43,253 bases of DNA, from the NCBI GenBank assembly GCA_947468085.1, contig CANIKY010000012.1:1-43253 (forward strand). Reading direction: 5' to 3'. This DNA comes from Paracoccaceae bacterium. GTDB lineage: Bacteria > Pseudomonadota > Alphaproteobacteria > Rhodobacterales > Rhodobacteraceae. The translations under genes were made by a program, and so were the position numbers. The notes beneath the pieces were generated by a model. It saw only the letters and a list, made by a program, of their open reading frames with translations. It did not search any database and was not told the origin of the DNA. Shown here one piece after another: positions 29,355 through 43,253 of the stretch. The stretch's first letter is position 1; every line of letters starts with the position of its first letter.

Positions 29355-30449
29355 TTAAGGCAGGGCTAGTTGGCCACCGATCGTGCCTTTGGGAACGCCG
29401 GTTGTTTGTGGGGATGAGGTGGGCAAACCGGCTTTGACCCGCGCGGCCAGATAGGCGAAGGCCTGTGCTTCGAGCATATCACCATTAAGGCCGTGGGTGT
29501 CTATGGCCGCCACCTGCGCAAAATGCTGTGAGAGGGCCTGCATCAACGCCTTATTGTGACGACCACCGCCTGCCACCAAAAGCTGGGTGATGGGGGCAGG
29601 AAAATGCGCGGCACCCTGCGCCACGGCGGCAGCGGCGCAGTGGGTGAGGGTTGCGAGCGCATCCGCGTCCTTCAGGTGCTGCACGGCGGTCAAAAGATCA
29701 AAGGCGTTGCGGTCTAGTGATTTGGGCAGGGGGCGTTGAAAATAGGGATGGCGCAGGAAGGCGGCGATCACCGCTGGGTCGGGAAGGCCCGTCAAGGCCA
29801 GCGCCCCGCCCTCATCTTGCGCGCGGCCTTGGCGGGCCAGCATCAGGTCGTTCATGGGGGCGTTGGCGGGGCCAGTATCAAAAGCCAAAAGCGCTGCGGG
29901 ATGCGCGGGGTCAGGGTGGCGCGGATCAATCCAAGTCAGATTGCCCACCCCACCGAGGTTCAAGATCGCCAAGGGCTGATCAGCCCCCATCCGCCGTGCC
30001 AGCGCGTGGTGAAAAAAGGGCACCAAGGGCGCGCCCTGCCCGCCTGCGGCGACATCGGCTGTGCGAAAATCCCACACCACGGGTAGACCCAAACTGCGAG
30101 CAAGATGTGCTCCGTCACCCGCTTGATGCGTACCGCGACCGCCCGGATCATGGGCGAGGGTTTGGCCGTGAAAACCCACCAGATCAACCTTGGCAAACTG
30201 ACGGCAGATCGCGAGATGAGCAGCCTCGACCACCGCTGCTGCGGCGGCAACCCCCGCCTGCCCCGGCCACTGGCCAAAGGCTAAACGAATCGTGGCGCGT
30301 TCAAACTCGGTATAGGCGCGGTAGGCGTGGGCGCCAAAATCAAAGACCTCGATCCCATCCGTCAGCACCATCGCCGCATCAACCCCGTCCAGCGAGGTGC
30401 CCGACATCAGCCCCAACACCCACAACGGCGTCAAACCCTTTCCCTTCAT
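29355..30449 (-). CDS. anmK: Anhydro-N-acetylmuramic acid kinase
   Basis: Recycles peptidoglycan: it hydrolyses and phosphorylates 1,6-anhydro-N-acetylmuramic acid to MurNAc-6-phosphate in the cytoplasm. The 364-residue length is normal. Family landmarks are the N-terminal [46 protein letters not shown], the [12 protein letters not shown] strand, [14 protein letters not shown] and [14 protein letters not shown]. It diverges from tyrS with only 45 bp between starts, a region holding the palindrome CGCTATAGCG (30459-30468). The start at 30449 is the first reasonable ATG, giving [19 protein letters not shown]. Confidence 0.95.
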
Positions 30450-30494
30450 CTGATCCCCCGCTATAGCGATGTCACCTTAATGCACGAGGCCCCC

Positions 30495-32009
30495 ATGACC
30501 TACCATCCAAAATCCGACTTCATGCGCGTGATGATCGAGCGCGGCTTTCTGGCCGATTGCACCGATTATCAAGCTTTGGATGAGGCCTTCCTGAAGGGGA
30601 TCGTGCCGGGCTATATCGGCTTTGATGCCACGGCCAAGTCGTTGCATGTGGGCAGCCTGATCCAGATCATGATGCTGCGCTGGCTGCAAAAATGCGGCGG
30701 CAAACCGATTGTGCTGATGGGTGGCGGAACGACCAAGATCGGCGATCCGTCCTTTCGCGCGGATGAGCGGCCTTTGCTGACCAATGCCCAGATTGACGAC
30801 AACATCGCCGGCATCAAACGAGTGTTTTCGCGGTATCTCGATTTCGGGCATTCGGCACCGACGATCGAAAGAACACGACGCCGTTTGACACCAGCAGAAT
30901 TCGCCGAAAACGTAACTAGAAACTATTTCGCGCGTAACACTAAATCGACACACAGAGATTTTCGTCAGTTTGTAAAGACTGCTGATGCTGCTGATTTGGT
31001 TTTACTTGCGTTGAACGGCGAACGCTGGACCCAAAAACGGCAACATTTTGCGTACGAAGAAGGGCTTTATGATTTAGCTGGGGGTTTCGCATTTGACTTC
31101 GATGAACTGACAACCGCCAAACCCACTGCGATCTTGGTCAACAATGCCGAATGGCTGGACCAGTTGAATTACATCGGCTTTCTGCGCGACATCGGCAAGC
31201 ATTTCTCGGTCAACCGGATGCTGTCGTTTGAATCGGTGAAATCGCGGCTAGACCGCGAGCAAAGCCTGTCGTTTCTGGAATTCAACTATATGATCTTGCA
31301 GGCCTATGACTTTTTGGAACTGAACCGCCGCTATGGCTGTTTGGTGCAGATGGGCGGGTCGGATCAGTGGGGCAATATCGTCAACGGCGTGGATCTGACC
31401 CGCCGTGTGGTTGATCATGAGGTGTACGGATTGACCTCGCCGCTTCTGACCACGTCGGATGGCAAGAAGATGGGCAAGTCGCAAAATGGGGCTGTCTGGC
31501 TGAACGCCGATCTGCTGAGCCCCTACGAGTTTTGGCAATTTTGGCGCAATACCACCGATGCCGATGTGGGGCGGTTCTTGAAGCTGTACACCGATCTGCC
31601 GCTTGAGGACTGCGCCCGCTTGGGCGCGCTGCAAGGGTCAGAGATCAACTTGGCCAAGATAGAGCTTGCCAACGCCGTCACAACCCTGCTGCACGGCCCC
31701 GAAGCCGCAGCCGCAGCCGAGGCCACCGCGCGCGAGGTGTTTGAAAAAGGCGGTGTGGGCGATGATCTGCCCACGCTAACGCTGCATGCCGCCGACGTCG
31801 CTGAAGGCATTACGGTCGCGCAACTCTTCGTCCGCGCGGGCTTGTCGGCCACGGGCAAAGACGCCAAACGCCTGATCTTGGAAGGTGGGGCGCGCTTGAA
31901 CGACGAGATCGTTCTGGACGCAGGCCACCGCATCGGCGCGGGTGATCTGGCCGAACCTTTGAAACTTACTGCTGGCAAAAAGCGCCATGCCTTGGTGATC
32001 TTGGGCTAA
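30495..32009 (+). CDS. tyrS: Tyrosyl-tRNA synthetase with an in-frame insertion of about 89 residues
   Basis: Charges tRNA-Tyr. Core features are intact: HVGS (residues 51-54, HIGH motif), [47 protein letters not shown] (tyrosine site), [10 protein letters not shown] (KMSKS loop) and a C-terminal S4 RNA-binding domain ([12 protein letters not shown]). The protein has 504 residues; relatives have about 415. The excess lies between [10 protein letters not shown] and AILVNNAEW, about residues 124-211, where the known protein has a short surface loop. The inserted stretch is open throughout and has lower GC and rare codons. The start at 30495 has GAGG 5 bp upstream. See the separate insertion feature. 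Confidence 0.95.
30862..31128 (+). other. In-frame foreign insertion within tyrS
   Basis: A stretch of 267 bp (89 codons) interrupts the usual tyrS alignment and keeps frame. The same five bases CGATC occur at 30862-30866 and 31129-31133, exactly 267 bp apart, which may be a target duplication or chance. By hand count 99 of 220 bases (30901-31120) are G or C, about 45 percent, against 53-58 percent in nearby tyrS. AGA occurs three times and TTA once, codons rare in the surrounding genes. The encoded peptide (for example [17 protein letters not shown], and later [19 protein letters not shown]) matches no family I recognise. It lacks intein ends (no terminal His-Asn, no cysteine start). Confidence 0.75.
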
Positions 32010-32063
32010 GCAGCGCCCATGCCTTCTAGCCCAAAATAAACGCGTCCACCTGAGGCTTTTGAG

Positions 32064-32105
32064 AAGACCAAAAAAGACCCGCCAACTTGGCGGGTCTTAG
32101 GTCTT
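32064..32105. terminator. Strong bidirectional terminator between tyrS and cyclophilin gene
   Basis: AAGACCCGCCA (32074-32084) and TGGCGGGTCTT (32088-32098) form an 11-bp stem with a 3-nt loop. Outer arms AAGACC (32064-32069) and GGTCTT (32100-32105) extend it. A-rich sequence flanks one side and T-rich the other, so it can end both the rightward tyrS and the leftward cyclophilin transcripts. Confidence 0.88.
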
Positions 32106-32109
32106 TGCT

Positions 32110-32679
32110 TTATTCTTGCACCGTGACTTTCGCCATCACATCCGGTTCGGTGACCTCGCCATTGGCGCCGTCACCGCGTTTGATCTGGTCGACAATCTCC
32201 ATGCCGGAAATCACCTTGCCCACCACGGTATATTGGCCGTTGAGAAAATCGCCAGGGGCGAACATGATGAAGAACTGGCTATTGGCCGAATCCGGATCGG
32301 ACGAGCGCGCCATGCCCACGATGCCGCGGTCAAAGGCAGCTGTCGAGAACTCGGCCGGAATGTTGGGCAGATCAGACCCGCCCATTCCTGCCATGGTGGT
32401 ATCGCTGCCCTTCTTGCCGTATTGCACATCGCCCGTTTGGGCCATGAAACCCTCGATCACGCGGTGGAAGACCACGTTATCATAAGCCCCCGCTTGGGCC
32501 AGCGCCACAATCTGCGCCACAGCTTTGGGGGCAAGATCGGGAGAAAGATCAATGATGATCTCGCCCTTGGCGACACCGTCAATCAGTATCACCAGATTGG
32601 GCCCGGGCCCATCGCCCTCGGCCCAAGCCGCATTTGCCAGCATGACCAGCGCAGCAGCGCCCAGAAGATTACGCAACAT
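32110..32679 (-). CDS. Periplasmic peptidyl-prolyl cis-trans isomerase (cyclophilin type)
   Basis: A 189-residue cyclophilin with an N-terminal signal peptide (about residues 1-20, LLGAAALVMLANAAWA-E), so it folds exported proteins in the periplasm. Catalytic core: YDNVVFHRVIEGFMAQTGD with the active-site arginine, then SANSQFFIMFAPGDFLNGQY and VVGKVISGMEIVDQI. It starts inside the 3' end of the cytoplasmic cyclophilin gene (11-bp overlap) and probably shares its transcript. The tandem cyclophilins differ mainly in location. Confidence 0.94.
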   Translation of the reverse strand: MLRNLLGAAALVMLANAAWAEGDGPGPNLVILIDGVAKGEIIIDLSPDLAPKAVAQIVALAQAGAYDNVVFHRVIEGFMAQTGDVQYGKKGSDTTMAGMGGSDLPNIPAEFSTAAFDRGIVGMARSSDPDSANSQFFIMFAPGDFLNGQYTVVGKVISGMEIVDQIKRGDGANGEVTEPDVMAKVTVQE

Positions 32680-38894: not shown

Positions 38895-39152
38895 GGTCCC
38901 TCCAAACGTCCTGTAGCCCCTATCGGGCGGACCTTTTCGTTCTGAAGGACGAAATGACGGGCCCGCCTGACAAAGTCAGCCGGTAATGCAAGCGGTGCAG
39001 ATGGTGTTTTTGCGCGTCATGGGGGGCTTTTAGCGAAAAGGGCGGGCCAAACCAAGGGGAAAGTTCATCAGGGGGCTGTTGCCTTGCACCCCCCTTGCCA
39101 AGGCGCATCCCCTCTGCGTTCATCGCGCCAAACTGCAGCAAGGGACCATGCC
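38895..39152. other. 258-bp divergent intergenic region between cysS and the decarboxylase gene
   Basis: No convincing gene is seen. A minus-strand open frame from 39246 reaches 38920 but overlaps the decarboxylase start and matches nothing I know. Two small dyads are visible: TTTCGTTC/GGACGAAA at 38935-38954 (one G-T pair, 4-nt loop) and CTTTT-AGCG-AAAAG at 39027-39040, the latter like the hairpins at 2.3 and 37.5 kb. It holds the ribosome-binding sites of both flanking genes. No tRNA was recognised. Confidence 0.6.
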
Positions 39153-40532
39153 ATGAACCACGACGACCTGCGCCACTGGTCCAAACGCGCCGCCGATTGG
39201 GCACATGACTATCACGCAGGCTTGCGGGGCAAACCGGTGCGCGCACCTTTGATCCCCGGTGCTATCGCGCGCCAGTTGCCGACCCAACCGCCCGAGATGG
39301 CAGAGCCGATGGAGACCATCTTCGCCGATTTTGACCGCATCGTGCCCCCCGGCCTGACCCATTGGCAACACCCGCGCTTTTTTGCCTATTTTCCCGCCAA
39401 TGCCTCACCGGCCTCGATGTTGGCAGAGCAGTTGGCGAATGCTATCGCCGCCCAAGGGATGCTGTGGCAAACCTCGCCCGCTGTGACAGAGATTGAACAG
39501 GTCATGGTCGATTGGCTGCGCCAATCTTTGGGCTTGCCTGTGGAATTTACCGGCACGATCCATGACAGCGCCACGACCGCCACTCTGTCGGCCATCTTGA
39601 CGATGCGCGAGCAAGCGCTGGATTGGGCGGGGCTGACCAAGGGGTTGCAGGGCCAACCACGTTTGCGGATTTATGCCAGCGATCAGACGCATTCGTCGGT
39701 GGATAAGGCGATGAGAATTGCGGGTTTGGGCCAAGACAATCTGGTCAAGATCGCCACTGATGCAACCTTGTCGATGACCCCGTCTGCCCTGCAAGCGGCC
39801 ATCATGGCCGATCTGGCGGCAGGTTTTGTGCCTGCGGGGGTGGTTTTATGTGCGGGGGGCACCTCTGTCGGGGCGTTTGACCGGATGGGGGAGTGTATCA
39901 GGGTGGCCAAGGCGCATGACCTGCCCGTGCATGTTGATGCGGCTTGGGCGGGGTCTGCGATGATCTGCCCCGAATTTCGCAGCCTTTGGGCGGGGCTGGA
40001 GGGGGCTGATAGCATTGTCTTTAACCCCCACAAATGGCTGGGGGCGCAGTTTGACTGCGCGGTGCAGTTTCTGCGCGACCCCGGCCCGCAGGTGAAAACC
40101 CTTGGCCTGCGGCCCAGCTATCTGCAAACGGCGGGCCGCGAAGAGGTGGTGAATTTCAACGAATGGACCGTGCCCTTGGGACGGCGCTTTCGCGCGCTGA
40201 AACTGTGGTTCACCCTGCGCGCCTATGGGCTAGAGGGGCTGCGGGGGCGTATTCGCAACCATGTGGCTTGGGCGCAGGATTTGGCCTTGACCTTGGGCAA
40301 AGTGGCGGGGGTTGAGATTGTCACCCCGCCATCGTTATCGCTGTTCACCTTTGCCTTGGGCAGCGATGCCGCCACCGAAGCGCTGCTGACGCGCATCAAC
40401 GACGATGGCCGCATCTATCTGACCCAAACCCGCCATCAGGGCCGCTTTGTCATTCGCGTGCAGGTGGGGCAGTTTGATTGCACGGTGGAAGATGTGCAGA
40501 TGGTGGAACTTGTCGTGCGCGCGTTACTTTAA
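39153..40532 (+). CDS. PLP-dependent amino acid decarboxylase, group II (aromatic-L-amino-acid decarboxylase-like)
   Basis: A 459-residue fold-type I decarboxylase. The N-terminus has THWQHPRFFAYFPANASP, typical of aromatic-amino-acid decarboxylases. The PLP region follows: HDSATTATLSAI, the DQTHSSVDKAMRIAGL histidine that stacks on PLP, HVDAAWAGSAMICPEF, and the Schiff-base lysine in FNPHKWLGAQFDCA. It would release CO2 from Trp, Tyr, Phe or dopa-type substrates; the substrate is not certain. The start at 39153 has AAGGGA about 7 bp upstream. It converges with a flavin-dependent halogenase gene, a suggestive but unproven pairing. Confidence 0.9.
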   Translation: MNHDDLRHWSKRAADWAHDYHAGLRGKPVRAPLIPGAIARQLPTQPPEMAEPMETIFADFDRIVPPGLTHWQHPRFFAYFPANASPASMLAEQLANAIAAQGMLWQTSPAVTEIEQVMVDWLRQSLGLPVEFTGTIHDSATTATLSAILTMREQALDWAGLTKGLQGQPRLRIYASDQTHSSVDKAMRIAGLGQDNLVKIATDATLSMTPSALQAAIMADLAAGFVPAGVVLCAGGTSVGAFDRMGECIRVAKAHDLPVHVDAAWAGSAMICPEFRSLWAGLEGADSIVFNPHKWLGAQFDCAVQFLRDPGPQVKTLGLRPSYLQTAGREEVVNFNEWTVPLGRRFRALKLWFTLRAYGLEGLRGRIRNHVAWAQDLALTLGKVAGVEIVTPPSLSLFTFALGSDAATEALLTRINDDGRIYLTQTRHQGRFVIRVQVGQFDCTVEDVQMVELVVRALL

Positions 40533-40575: not shown

Positions 40576-42060
40576 TCACCCCGCTGACAAGCTGCCAAGC
40601 CATGCGCGGTGCGGGGCGCATTGGCTGGCGGCACGGGTGTAATCGCGCACAAGGCTGGCATGGGCCAAGCGGGTTTTGTCGCGCAGCGCGGGGGATTTTT
40701 CCATCTCGGTCTTGGCGGCAGCGCGGTTGAGCAGGCCTAGGCCGTCCAGCACGGGCGTATAAAGCTGGCCTTGCAAATGCGGCAGGCCCAAGGGAAACGG
40801 GTCGAAATCCTGCGCTTGCGGCAAGCGGGTTTGCCACAGGGCCAGCCTGTCGCGCACAACCTGCGGATGGCTGTCCGCCACATCGCGCCAAAAGGGCGAA
40901 TCGCGCCGTTCGCTGACATAGTGCAGGCGGATGAAATCGCGAAAGTCGTCGACCTGACGGGCCACGGCGGCGTTATACAGCCCCTGCCCTGTCGGATGGC
41001 CCAGCCATTCGGCCAAAAGCATCAACTGAACGATGGTGCCGTGGATCGATGTCGCCTCTAGGGGTTCCAGAAAGCTGGAAGACAGGCCCAAGGCCACGCA
41101 ATTGCCGATCCACGCCGATTTCAGACGGCCCGCATCAATGGCGATGTCATTGCGGGGGTGGATTTCGTGGCCAAGGGCGGCTTCGACCTCGGCCTTGGCT
41201 TGGTCTTTAGTGATGTGGGCGTCGGAATAGACATAGCCCATGCCAAAGCGGTCTTGGGTGGGGATTTGCCAGATCCAGCCGTTCTTTTGCGCCCAAGCGG
41301 TGGTGCAGGGCGCAATCTCGGCCCCGTCTTTCAGATCAACCCAAAAGGGCATCGCGCGGTTGACGGGCAGCATTTGGGCGTAGCTGAGCCATTCTGCCCC
41401 CAAGGGGCCAATCAAGGCGCGGCGAAAGCCGCTGCAATCCAGAAAGAAATCGCCTTCTACCCGCCCACCGCTGTCCATAACCAAGGCCGTGATGCCGCCC
41501 TCGCCCGTTTCCACCGACAAAACCTGATCGTCGATCACGGCTATGCCCTTGGCCTTCTTGCGCAGCCAAGCGCCCGCGCGGGCCTGATCGAAGTGAAAGG
41601 CGTGGTGAAAGGGGCCAGCGGCAATGCTGCGGCCCTCTTTCATCGCCACGGGGGCGCGGTTGGCGTTGAGCAAGTGCTGGAACAAATGCGCCTCGGCCAC
41701 GGGGCGGGCGGCGGCGACGGCATAGGTGTCAAGCGCAAGACCAGGCGTCAGCAGCGAGGGGTCATCAATCGGCCCGTCATAGCTGTGCCCCACCTTGCGC
41801 CAATCGCGGTGGCGGATGGCATATTTGATCGTCGCACCGCTTTCGCGCAAGAACTCGGCCTCGTCTAGGCCGAGGTGTTTGAGCATTTGGCGAAAGACGG
41901 CGGTTGATCCTTCGCCCACGCCAATCGTGCCGATTTTAGAGGATTCGATCACGGTGATCTTGCTCCCCCAACCTTTGCGCCCCGCCACATCGGCCAGCAT
42001 CAGGGCGGCCAGCCAACCGGCTGTGCCGCCGCCGACGATAACCAGATGGCGCGGTGCCAT
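40576..42060 (-). CDS. Flavin-dependent (tryptophan-type) halogenase
   Basis: A 494-residue enzyme of the tryptophan halogenase family. It has the FAD motif LVIVGGGTAGWLAALMLA, IGVGEGSTAVFRQML, a lysine at the place of the catalytic chloramine lysine (ESGATIKYAIRHRDW), the WIWQIP motif that keeps the halogenase from acting as a monooxygenase, and SSFLEPLEATSIHG. Activity on free Trp, a peptide or another aromatic cannot be told. The start overlaps the melA stop by one base (TGATG), so the two are cotranslated. Family members beside sugar-use genes are known to me from other proteobacteria, but their role is unsettled. A flavin reductase partner is needed in trans. Confidence 0.9.
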   Translation of the reverse strand: MAPRHLVIVGGGTAGWLAALMLADVAGRKGWGSKITVIESSKIGTIGVGEGSTAVFRQMLKHLGLDEAEFLRESGATIKYAIRHRDWRKVGHSYDGPIDDPSLLTPGLALDTYAVAAARPVAEAHLFQHLLNANRAPVAMKEGRSIAAGPFHHAFHFDQARAGAWLRKKAKGIAVIDDQVLSVETGEGGITALVMDSGGRVEGDFFLDCSGFRRALIGPLGAEWLSYAQMLPVNRAMPFWVDLKDGAEIAPCTTAWAQKNGWIWQIPTQDRFGMGYVYSDAHITKDQAKAEVEAALGHEIHPRNDIAIDAGRLKSAWIGNCVALGLSSSFLEPLEATSIHGTIVQLMLLAEWLGHPTGQGLYNAAVARQVDDFRDFIRLHYVSERRDSPFWRDVADSHPQVVRDRLALWQTRLPQAQDFDPFPLGLPHLQGQLYTPVLDGLGLLNRAAAKTEMEKSPALRDKTRLAHASLVRDYTRAASQCAPHRAWLGSLSAG

Positions 42061-43253
42061 CAGGCGACCTTGGAGGTCTTGGGCCGCGCCCATTCGGGCA
42101 GCCAGTCGCCATGCGCGACCAGCAAATCATGGGTCAGATCCCAGATTTGCTGCAAGTCAAGCTCTGCCCCCGTGTGGGGATCCAGCATAGCGGCGTGGTA
42201 GATATGTTCGGGGTTTTCGGTCAAAAGGGCCTGAACCGTCAGGTCTTGCACGTTGATATTGGTGCGCATCAGCGCGATCAGTTGCGGCGGAATATCGCGC
42301 ACCACGGTGGGTTGCAGGCCCATGTGATCAACCAGCGTTGGCACCTCGACAGCGCAGCCTTCGGGCAATTGGGGGATAAAGCCCTTGTTGCCGTGGTTGC
42401 CGTAAATCACCGAAGGCTCGCCCGTGACGACCGAATTCACGATTTGGCTGGCGTATTCGTGGCTTTCTTTCACCTCGATCGTATTGGCCTCTTTCAGGGT
42501 GGTCGCCTCTTTCTTCCAACGGGCGATTTGTTCGATGCAACGCTTGGGGTATTCATCCAAAGGGATGCCGAACTTTTCGATCAGGTCGGGGCGGTCGCGC
42601 TTGATGAACCACGGGGTGTATTCGGCGAAATGCTCGCTGCTTTCGGTGACGAAATAGCCCAGACGGGTGAGCATTTCGTAGCGCACCTTGTTGGGGCAGC
42701 GCGGGTTCCAATGGCTGGGCTTTGGAAAGCGCCCCTCGCGGTAGCCTTTCAACAAGTCGGGGTAGAGGTTCTTATACGACCCATCCGCCTGACGATGTTC
42801 AAAGGTCATATAAAACGCCATGTGGTTGATGCCGCCCGCGCGGTAGCGGATGTCTTCCACCGGAATGTCCAGATCGCGCGCCAATTCAAACGCGGTGCCT
42901 TGCACCGAATGGCACAGGCCCACCTGTTTGATCTTTGGATATTTCGCGGCAATTGACCACGTGTTGATGGCCATCGGGTTGACATATTGCATCATGATCG
43001 CCTCGGGGGCGACCTGCATCATATCCTCGCAGATCGACCAAAGTGCCGGCACGGTGCGAATGCCGCGCATGATGCCGCCGATGCCCAAAGTGTCAGCGAT
43101 GGTTTGGCGCAGACCGAATTTCTTGGGAATTTCAAAGTCGGTGATCGTGCAGGGATCATAGCCGCCGACCTGAAAGCAGCAGACGACAAAATCGGTGCCA
43201 GATAGAGCCGCGCGCTGGTTGGTATAGGTTTTCACGCTGGCCTTGCTGCCCAA
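42060..43253 (-). CDS. melA: Alpha-galactosidase, glycoside hydrolase family 4 (5' part outside window)
   Basis: The frame is open to the right edge, so the N-terminus, including the NAD-binding glycine motif, is missing; 397 residues are visible. They follow E. coli MelA closely as I remember it: QVGGYDPCTITDFEI, then QTIADTLGIGGIMRGIRT, YVNPMAINTW, GLCHSVQGTA (cysteine and histidine metal ligands), GINHMAFY, VTESSEHFAEYTPWF, SVIYGN and HAAMLDPHTGAELDL. GH4 enzymes use NAD+ and Mn2+ in a redox-assisted mechanism. It would cleave melibiose or raffinose-type galactosides in the cytoplasm. The stop is coupled to the halogenase start. Confidence 0.93.
   Translation of the reverse strand: MGSKASVKTYTNQRAALSGTDFVVCCFQVGGYDPCTITDFEIPKKFGLRQTIADTLGIGGIMRGIRTVPALWSICEDMMQVAPEAIMMQYVNPMAINTWSIAAKYPKIKQVGLCHSVQGTAFELARDLDIPVEDIRYRAGGINHMAFYMTFEHRQADGSYKNLYPDLLKGYREGRFPKPSHWNPRCPNKVRYEMLTRLGYFVTESSEHFAEYTPWFIKRDRPDLIEKFGIPLDEYPKRCIEQIARWKKEATTLKEANTIEVKESHEYASQIVNSVVTGEPSVIYGNHGNKGFIPQLPEGCAVEVPTLVDHMGLQPTVVRDIPPQLIALMRTNINVQDLTVQALLTENPEHIYHAAMLDPHTGAELDLQQIWDLTHDLLVAHGDWLPEWARPKTSKVA

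Follow-up and report, generated by a model that had tools for sequence, protein, structure and literature searches.

An orphan 88-residue segment within the tyrosyl-tRNA synthetase of a Paracoccaceae bacterium, probably acquired by homologous recombination

The stretch of DNA analysed here (the window) comprises 43,253 nucleotides from the genome of a Paracoccaceae bacterium and contains, at positions 30495–32009 of the forward strand, a tyrS gene whose translation is a tyrosyl-tRNA synthetase (TyrRS) of 504 residues. The product matches PF00579 (E = 5.4e-70) and the model for bacterial-type tyrosyl-tRNA synthetases, TIGR00234 (E = 6.8e-97), scoring 325 bits against a cut-off of 113.8 for the latter. 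Two catalytic signatures are intact on the same strand, namely HVGS (30645–30656), which we take to be the HIGH-type signature of TyrRS, and KMGKS (31467–31481), presumably the KMSKS-type signature. Residues H51, V52 and G53 of the former and K325, M326, G327 and K328 of the latter are invariant across 27 sequences, including the window's own TyrRS. The surroundings of the gene are ordinary, with Pfam matches identifying a mannitol dehydrogenase, anmK, a cyclophilin, phosphoglycerate kinase and cysteinyl-tRNA synthetase, and the order of genes around tyrS is conserved in three relatives (G004, G005 and G013). Further along the window, Pfam matches place a tryptophan halogenase-family gene (40576–42093) next to a PLP-dependent decarboxylase gene (39084–40532), a pair which possibly serves a small-molecule pathway.

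The window's tyrS provides the sole TyrRS match in the source genome, an assembly of 196 contigs that is 95.95% complete. Comparison of the TyrRS core with that of G013, the nearest relative, gives dN = 0.016 and dS = 0.438, values which point to purifying selection, mostly over a history that would predate the insertion described below. With the core under such selection, the signatures intact and a second TyrRS not found, the protein is presumably the cell's working enzyme.

The 504-residue protein is unusually long, as a first-pass annotation of the window had pointed out, its insert-free counterpart at L057 having 416 residues. That annotation had proposed an in-frame insertion of about 89 codons at 30862–31128 and had suggested aligning TyrS from close relatives to fix its limits. 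The alignment, together with composition, shows that the in-frame insertion is real but places it on the forward strand at 30864–31127, where it comprises 88 codons (264 nt; residues 124–211) and has displaced no TyrRS residue. The 267 nt originally quoted is the distance between two flanking CGATC motifs, not the length of the insert itself. The insert begins with Ile, ends with Thr and lies between ...YLDFG, which closes the first half of the catalytic domain, and the strand AILVNN. At this point the sequence is FGxxxxDAILVNN in G013, G004 and G005 and FGHSAPT[88 aa]AILVNN in the window. No second in-frame addition of similar size was found in the stretches that were compared with relatives, the largest there being 30 nt.

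The possibility that close relatives all carry the same domain, which would have counted against the proposal, did not hold. The segment has no counterpart in any of the other 15 genus members compared; in each of them tyrS matches as two pieces (query residues 1 to ~120 and ~210 to 504), and these are only 0–9 nt apart, leaving no room for an insert. A survey of the family using an insert-free TyrRS as the query gave matches in 142 of 144 genomes. The insert is absent from 140 of the 141 other genomes with a match, in which one match runs across the loop and shows no lengthy addition; the one exception, G067, is uninformative because its match starts past the loop, at a contig edge. Of the 142 genomes, the source genome (G000) is the only one whose match splits at the insert loop; additional match pieces in G099, G147 and G169 fall elsewhere in TyrRS. 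In G005, tyrS occurs as two overlapping but unequal pieces (L052 and L053, on contigs C41 and C5), reflecting either two alleles or strains mixed in the assembly.

The composition of the insert sets it apart from the gene around it. Its GC content is 45.8%, in agreement with the earlier hand count of about 45 percent, and from the first to the third codon position the GC fractions are 0.55, 0.44 and 0.39, compared to 0.60, 0.40 and 0.74 elsewhere in tyrS. The codons AGA and TTA, already singled out in the first reading, account for 3 and 2 of the 88 codons and GTA for a further 2, each of the three being absent from the remaining 416 codons. Aromatic residues (F, W and Y) make up 14% of the insert as opposed to 8% of the TyrRS core. 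In its forward frames the insert contains 0 stops (TyrRS frame), 6 and 8, and among 5000 dinucleotide shuffles the TyrRS frame was open in 1.5% and any forward frame in 4.1%. Since the TyrRS frame is the only open one in the forward direction, translation of the insert is probable. Its base usage is uneven between codon positions (P = 0.047), which lends mild support to an origin in coding DNA.

The open frame also bears on whether the stretch is an artefact of assembly or a chimera of strains, a possibility that might be raised by the fragmentation of the source genome into 196 contigs and by the two tyrS pieces at contig ends in the neighbouring genome G005. An insert open in the TyrRS frame would arise in only 1.5% of shuffles, the reading frame and the number of loop codons are preserved at both joints, and the surrounding gene order is that of G004, G005 and G013. 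We consider an artefact very improbable, in keeping with the initial judgement that assembly error is unlikely.

It is similarly hard to argue that the stretch is excised or skipped on the way to a functional enzyme, as an intein, an intron or a segment bypassed by the ribosome between the ATC codons at 30864 and 31131. These codons are in frame, matched and 267 nt apart, with an imperfect hairpin between them, as such a model would like. Inteins have characteristic ends, with a nucleophile and an Asn; the insert runs from Ile to Thr, lacks Cys altogether and matches no Pfam family, bearing out the earlier remark that intein ends are absent. As regards introns, a search of the tyrS region (30300–32200) with Rfam found no intron, the only match being a sub-threshold Trp_leader outside the insert, and the group I intron model RF00028 found nothing in the one genome searched for this purpose, that of the source organism (the control search was positive in 4 of 14 genomes). 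In ribosome bypass of the T4 gene 60 type, a stretch of message is skipped by the ribosome. Such a stretch need not be open, yet here the TyrRS frame is free of stops where the other two forward frames are not. Taken as a whole, removal by any of these routes is extremely improbable.

We searched for relatives of the insert at the level of protein, DNA and structure model, following the earlier proposal that the 89 residues and 267 bp be compared with the same and related genomes. By all three methods the insert is single copy in its own genome (95.95% complete), the best other DNA match having E = 0.43. Convincing relatives were found in none of 147 relatives, 394 genomes of the family, 385 of the class, 398 of the phylum and 390 of the order (overlapping sets). 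Among the 147 relatives, 21 other genomes gave a match with E of at most 1; with E of at most 0.01, the searches picked up 2 other genomes of 394 (family), 3 of 385 (class), 1 of 398 (phylum) and 2 of 390 (order), to be read against a chance expectation of about 4 per 400, the E-values being per genome. The best match among the 147, in G017 (E = 6e-4), is to the start of an unrelated protein resembling a signal peptide and was rejected. Inspection of the alignments for further weak matches (L034–L038 and L143–L146; L039–L051 and L175 were left out) revealed no common pattern. The insert likewise found no match in Pfam, PDB sequences, plasmids or phages, and its best scores in PHROGs and NCBIfam were E = 0.15 and E = 0.09. 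Viral contigs, screened with exact short peptide patterns that detect close relatives only, yielded none, and in a limited search of the open-licence literature we found no account of such an insert in a bacterial TyrRS.

The DNA match at E = 0.43 covers 21 of 24 nt at four places in the source genome and does not extend past 24 nt; we took it to be due to chance. The matching sites lie inside a repeat of 120–149 nt that resembles the end of an insertion sequence. This repeat, 90–100% alike between its four places (L135, L137, L138 and L139, on contigs C145, C53, C19 and C13), adjoins what we assume, by resemblance, to be fragments of insertion-sequence transposases.

The ends and the internal symmetry of the insert were examined with a mobile element in mind. 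The first-pass annotation had noted CGATC at both boundaries, 267 bp apart, and the copies indeed lie on the forward strand at 30862–30866 and 31129–31133. We place little weight on this repeat, because a common 5-mer or longer occurs within 8 nt of each site for 17% of 4000 random pairs of positions spaced 264 nt apart in the window, and because the right copy is already present in G013. A target-site duplication of this kind would imply an empty loop one codon shorter than that of the closest kin, and as a sign of such a duplication the pair of motifs is weak evidence. No terminal inverted repeat is listed at the insert ends, where the direct repeat amounts to 5 nt.

An absence of any long palindrome, as originally claimed, is not quite right. 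Alignment of the insert to its own reverse complement yields an imperfect palindrome at about 30865–31057, with a folded core at 30880–31041, although its significance is nominal only. The score of 85.5 compares with an average of 55.6 for shuffled versions (p = 0.008; p = 0.009 when codon order is shuffled), and 3 of 328 control tiles reach the same z of 3.3 or more, one of these three belonging to the 17 tiles with GC below 0.53. The raw score is reached by 17% of 86 tiles from the window. The fold energy of the insert is ordinary (z = -1.6, with 5 of 200 shuffles equally low; p = 0.12 for codon-order shuffles), and a covariance model of the 162-nt palindrome core matches only itself among 16 genomes of the genus. 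The palindrome, recognised only post hoc, is a weak signal with a nominal significance of about 0.01.

These features invite comparison with the palindromic elements of Rickettsia, which are about 150 bp long and present in many copies (PMC10969869). Like those elements, the tyrS insert sits in frame in a housekeeping gene, and it shows an imperfect palindrome of nominal significance; they differ in that the Rickettsia elements are multi-copy, whereas the tyrS insert is single copy and its palindrome weak. The dispersed copies that mark the Rickettsia elements have no equivalent for the tyrS insert in its own genome. A second comparison is with the mitochondria of Nematomorpha, for which PMC6649704 describes coding palindromes with perfect repeats of up to 284 bp. 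There, as here, an inverted repeat lies within coding sequence, but the Nematomorpha repeats are perfect and that of the tyrS insert is imperfect and near chance. A mobile, palindromic, protein-coding element of the Rickettsia kind would account for the in-frame position in a housekeeping gene and for nominal palindrome scores equalled by few control tiles. It is, however, difficult to reconcile with a protein and DNA sequence found once (and a structure model matching once in 16 genus genomes), with an unremarkable fold energy and with the frequency of comparable scores among low-GC and window tiles; we regard it as very unlikely. The wider suggestion of a new protein-level insertion element finds no support here, given the single copy, termini without evident repeats and a direct repeat of a kind often expected by chance.

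The position of the insert is a naturally permissive loop of TyrRS. Loop length could be read in 75 of the best 80 of at least 594 TyrRS loci, and extra residues occur in the same loop in Wenxinia (23), Celeribacter (12) and a Sulfitobacter (11); one further locus has 4 and the others at most 1. These enzymes share the site of the addition with the window's TyrRS, but their extras are of 11 to 23 residues rich in Gly, Ala, Ser, Asp, Glu and Pro, as opposed to 88 residues here. In the five alignments shown to solved TyrRS structures, both matching pieces meet at the insert loop too. Towards the C-terminus, TyrRS additions of ~13–17 residues are seen at L132, L133 and L126 (Lutimaribacter, Maritimibacter and a Roseobacter MAG, respectively).

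The two flanks of the insert are asymmetric. On the right (31128–31217, forward strand), the gene is identical to G013 over 90 nt (0 of 90 mismatched), and the first two 45-nt bins after the insert each have an identity of 1.00. On the left (30819–30863, forward strand; codons 109–123), the sequence is TyrRS-like but unlike that of the closest kin: 25 of 45 nt are mismatched to G013, compared to a maximum of 7 in any other 45-nt stretch to the left and 12 to the right. Changes affect 12 of the 15 codons and are synonymous in 2 of these. Measured in bins of 45 nt, identity to G013 stays at 0.84–0.98 up to codon 105 and drops to 0.62 for codons 106–120. The window shares 0.42–0.53 identity with five relatives over these 45 nt, where relatives at similar distance share 0.58–0.89 (six pairs only). 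Among 101 sequences, the first ten codons of the tract are nearest to G001 and Wenxinia (0.73), even though over the remaining left part of the gene identity is 0.76 to G001, 0.69 to Wenxinia and 0.94 to G013. The five codons adjoining the insert are also variable among relatives.

This pattern leads us to favour the view that approximately 30819–31127 is one foreign tract recombined into the native tyrS. It could also be that a lower-GC coding fragment was inserted directly into the cell's own tyrS, by end-joining or template switching, with the 15 adjoining codons changed then or later. Such a capture is conceivable, given a permissive loop, codons next to the insert that vary in all relatives, and the failure to find an insert-bearing donor tyrS in the genomes compared. 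It is rather unlikely in our view, as it does not readily explain why the altered tract starts 45 nt upstream of the insert, includes synonymous changes and resembles the TyrRS of other lineages.

Our preferred reading, to which we assign a probability of roughly 0.55, is that a translated orphan segment of 88 residues recently entered a permissive loop when the gene recombined homologously with the tyrS of another lineage, an allele in which the segment was already present. The left crossover would lie near 30818, in ATCAAACG, and the right crossover at or past GCGATCTTGG (31128 on), such that some 45 nt of donor TyrRS would have been transferred together with the insert. The diverged left and identical right flanks, the contrast in GC3, the absence of the segment from kin and the permissive loop all argue for this reading. 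A donor tyrS carrying the insert was found neither in the genomes of the genus and family nor in the best 80 of at least 594 TyrRS loci. We infer recombination as the route, a donor already bearing the insert, and the translation and folding of the segment. The initial proposals of a laterally acquired module or a lineage-specific domain both find support in these results, namely in the absence from kin, the foreign composition and the diverged left flank.

Under the recombination reading, the enzyme would remain the cell's TyrRS and the segment would most likely form an appendage on the surface that does not interfere with catalysis. As to its role, our guess is that it is near-neutral or provides an accessory binding surface, as opposed to taking part in catalysis. 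The fungal mitochondrial TyrRS CYT-18 offers a parallel: PMC4275181 describes insertions specific to Pezizomycotina (H0 and Ins 1–5), terms the Ins 1 helix a robust location for new elements and relates how extra elements in the catalytic domain came to contribute to a surface that binds group I introns. Both enzymes bear lineage-specific additions to the catalytic domain, but the insertions of CYT-18 are small and linked to group I intron splicing (PMC4275181), and the source genome here has no group I intron match. CYT-18 illustrates what such TyrRS additions can become. We also entertain, as a long shot, that the segment belongs to a new type of hairpin-forming, protein-coding insert in a housekeeping enzyme outside Rickettsia, which would spread between species inside tyrS alleles that recombine homologously through their conserved flanks, the essential gene acting as its vehicle.

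In one species, an essential enzyme that is usually constant in size has gained a foreign segment of considerable length, which the enzymes of its close kin have not. The TyrRS of G013, G005 and G004 is 96% identical to that of the source genome after the loop and 93–95% identical before it. Together with the source genome, these relatives form a before-and-after pair that would make it possible to test how a synthetase tolerates, or makes use of, a new surface module.
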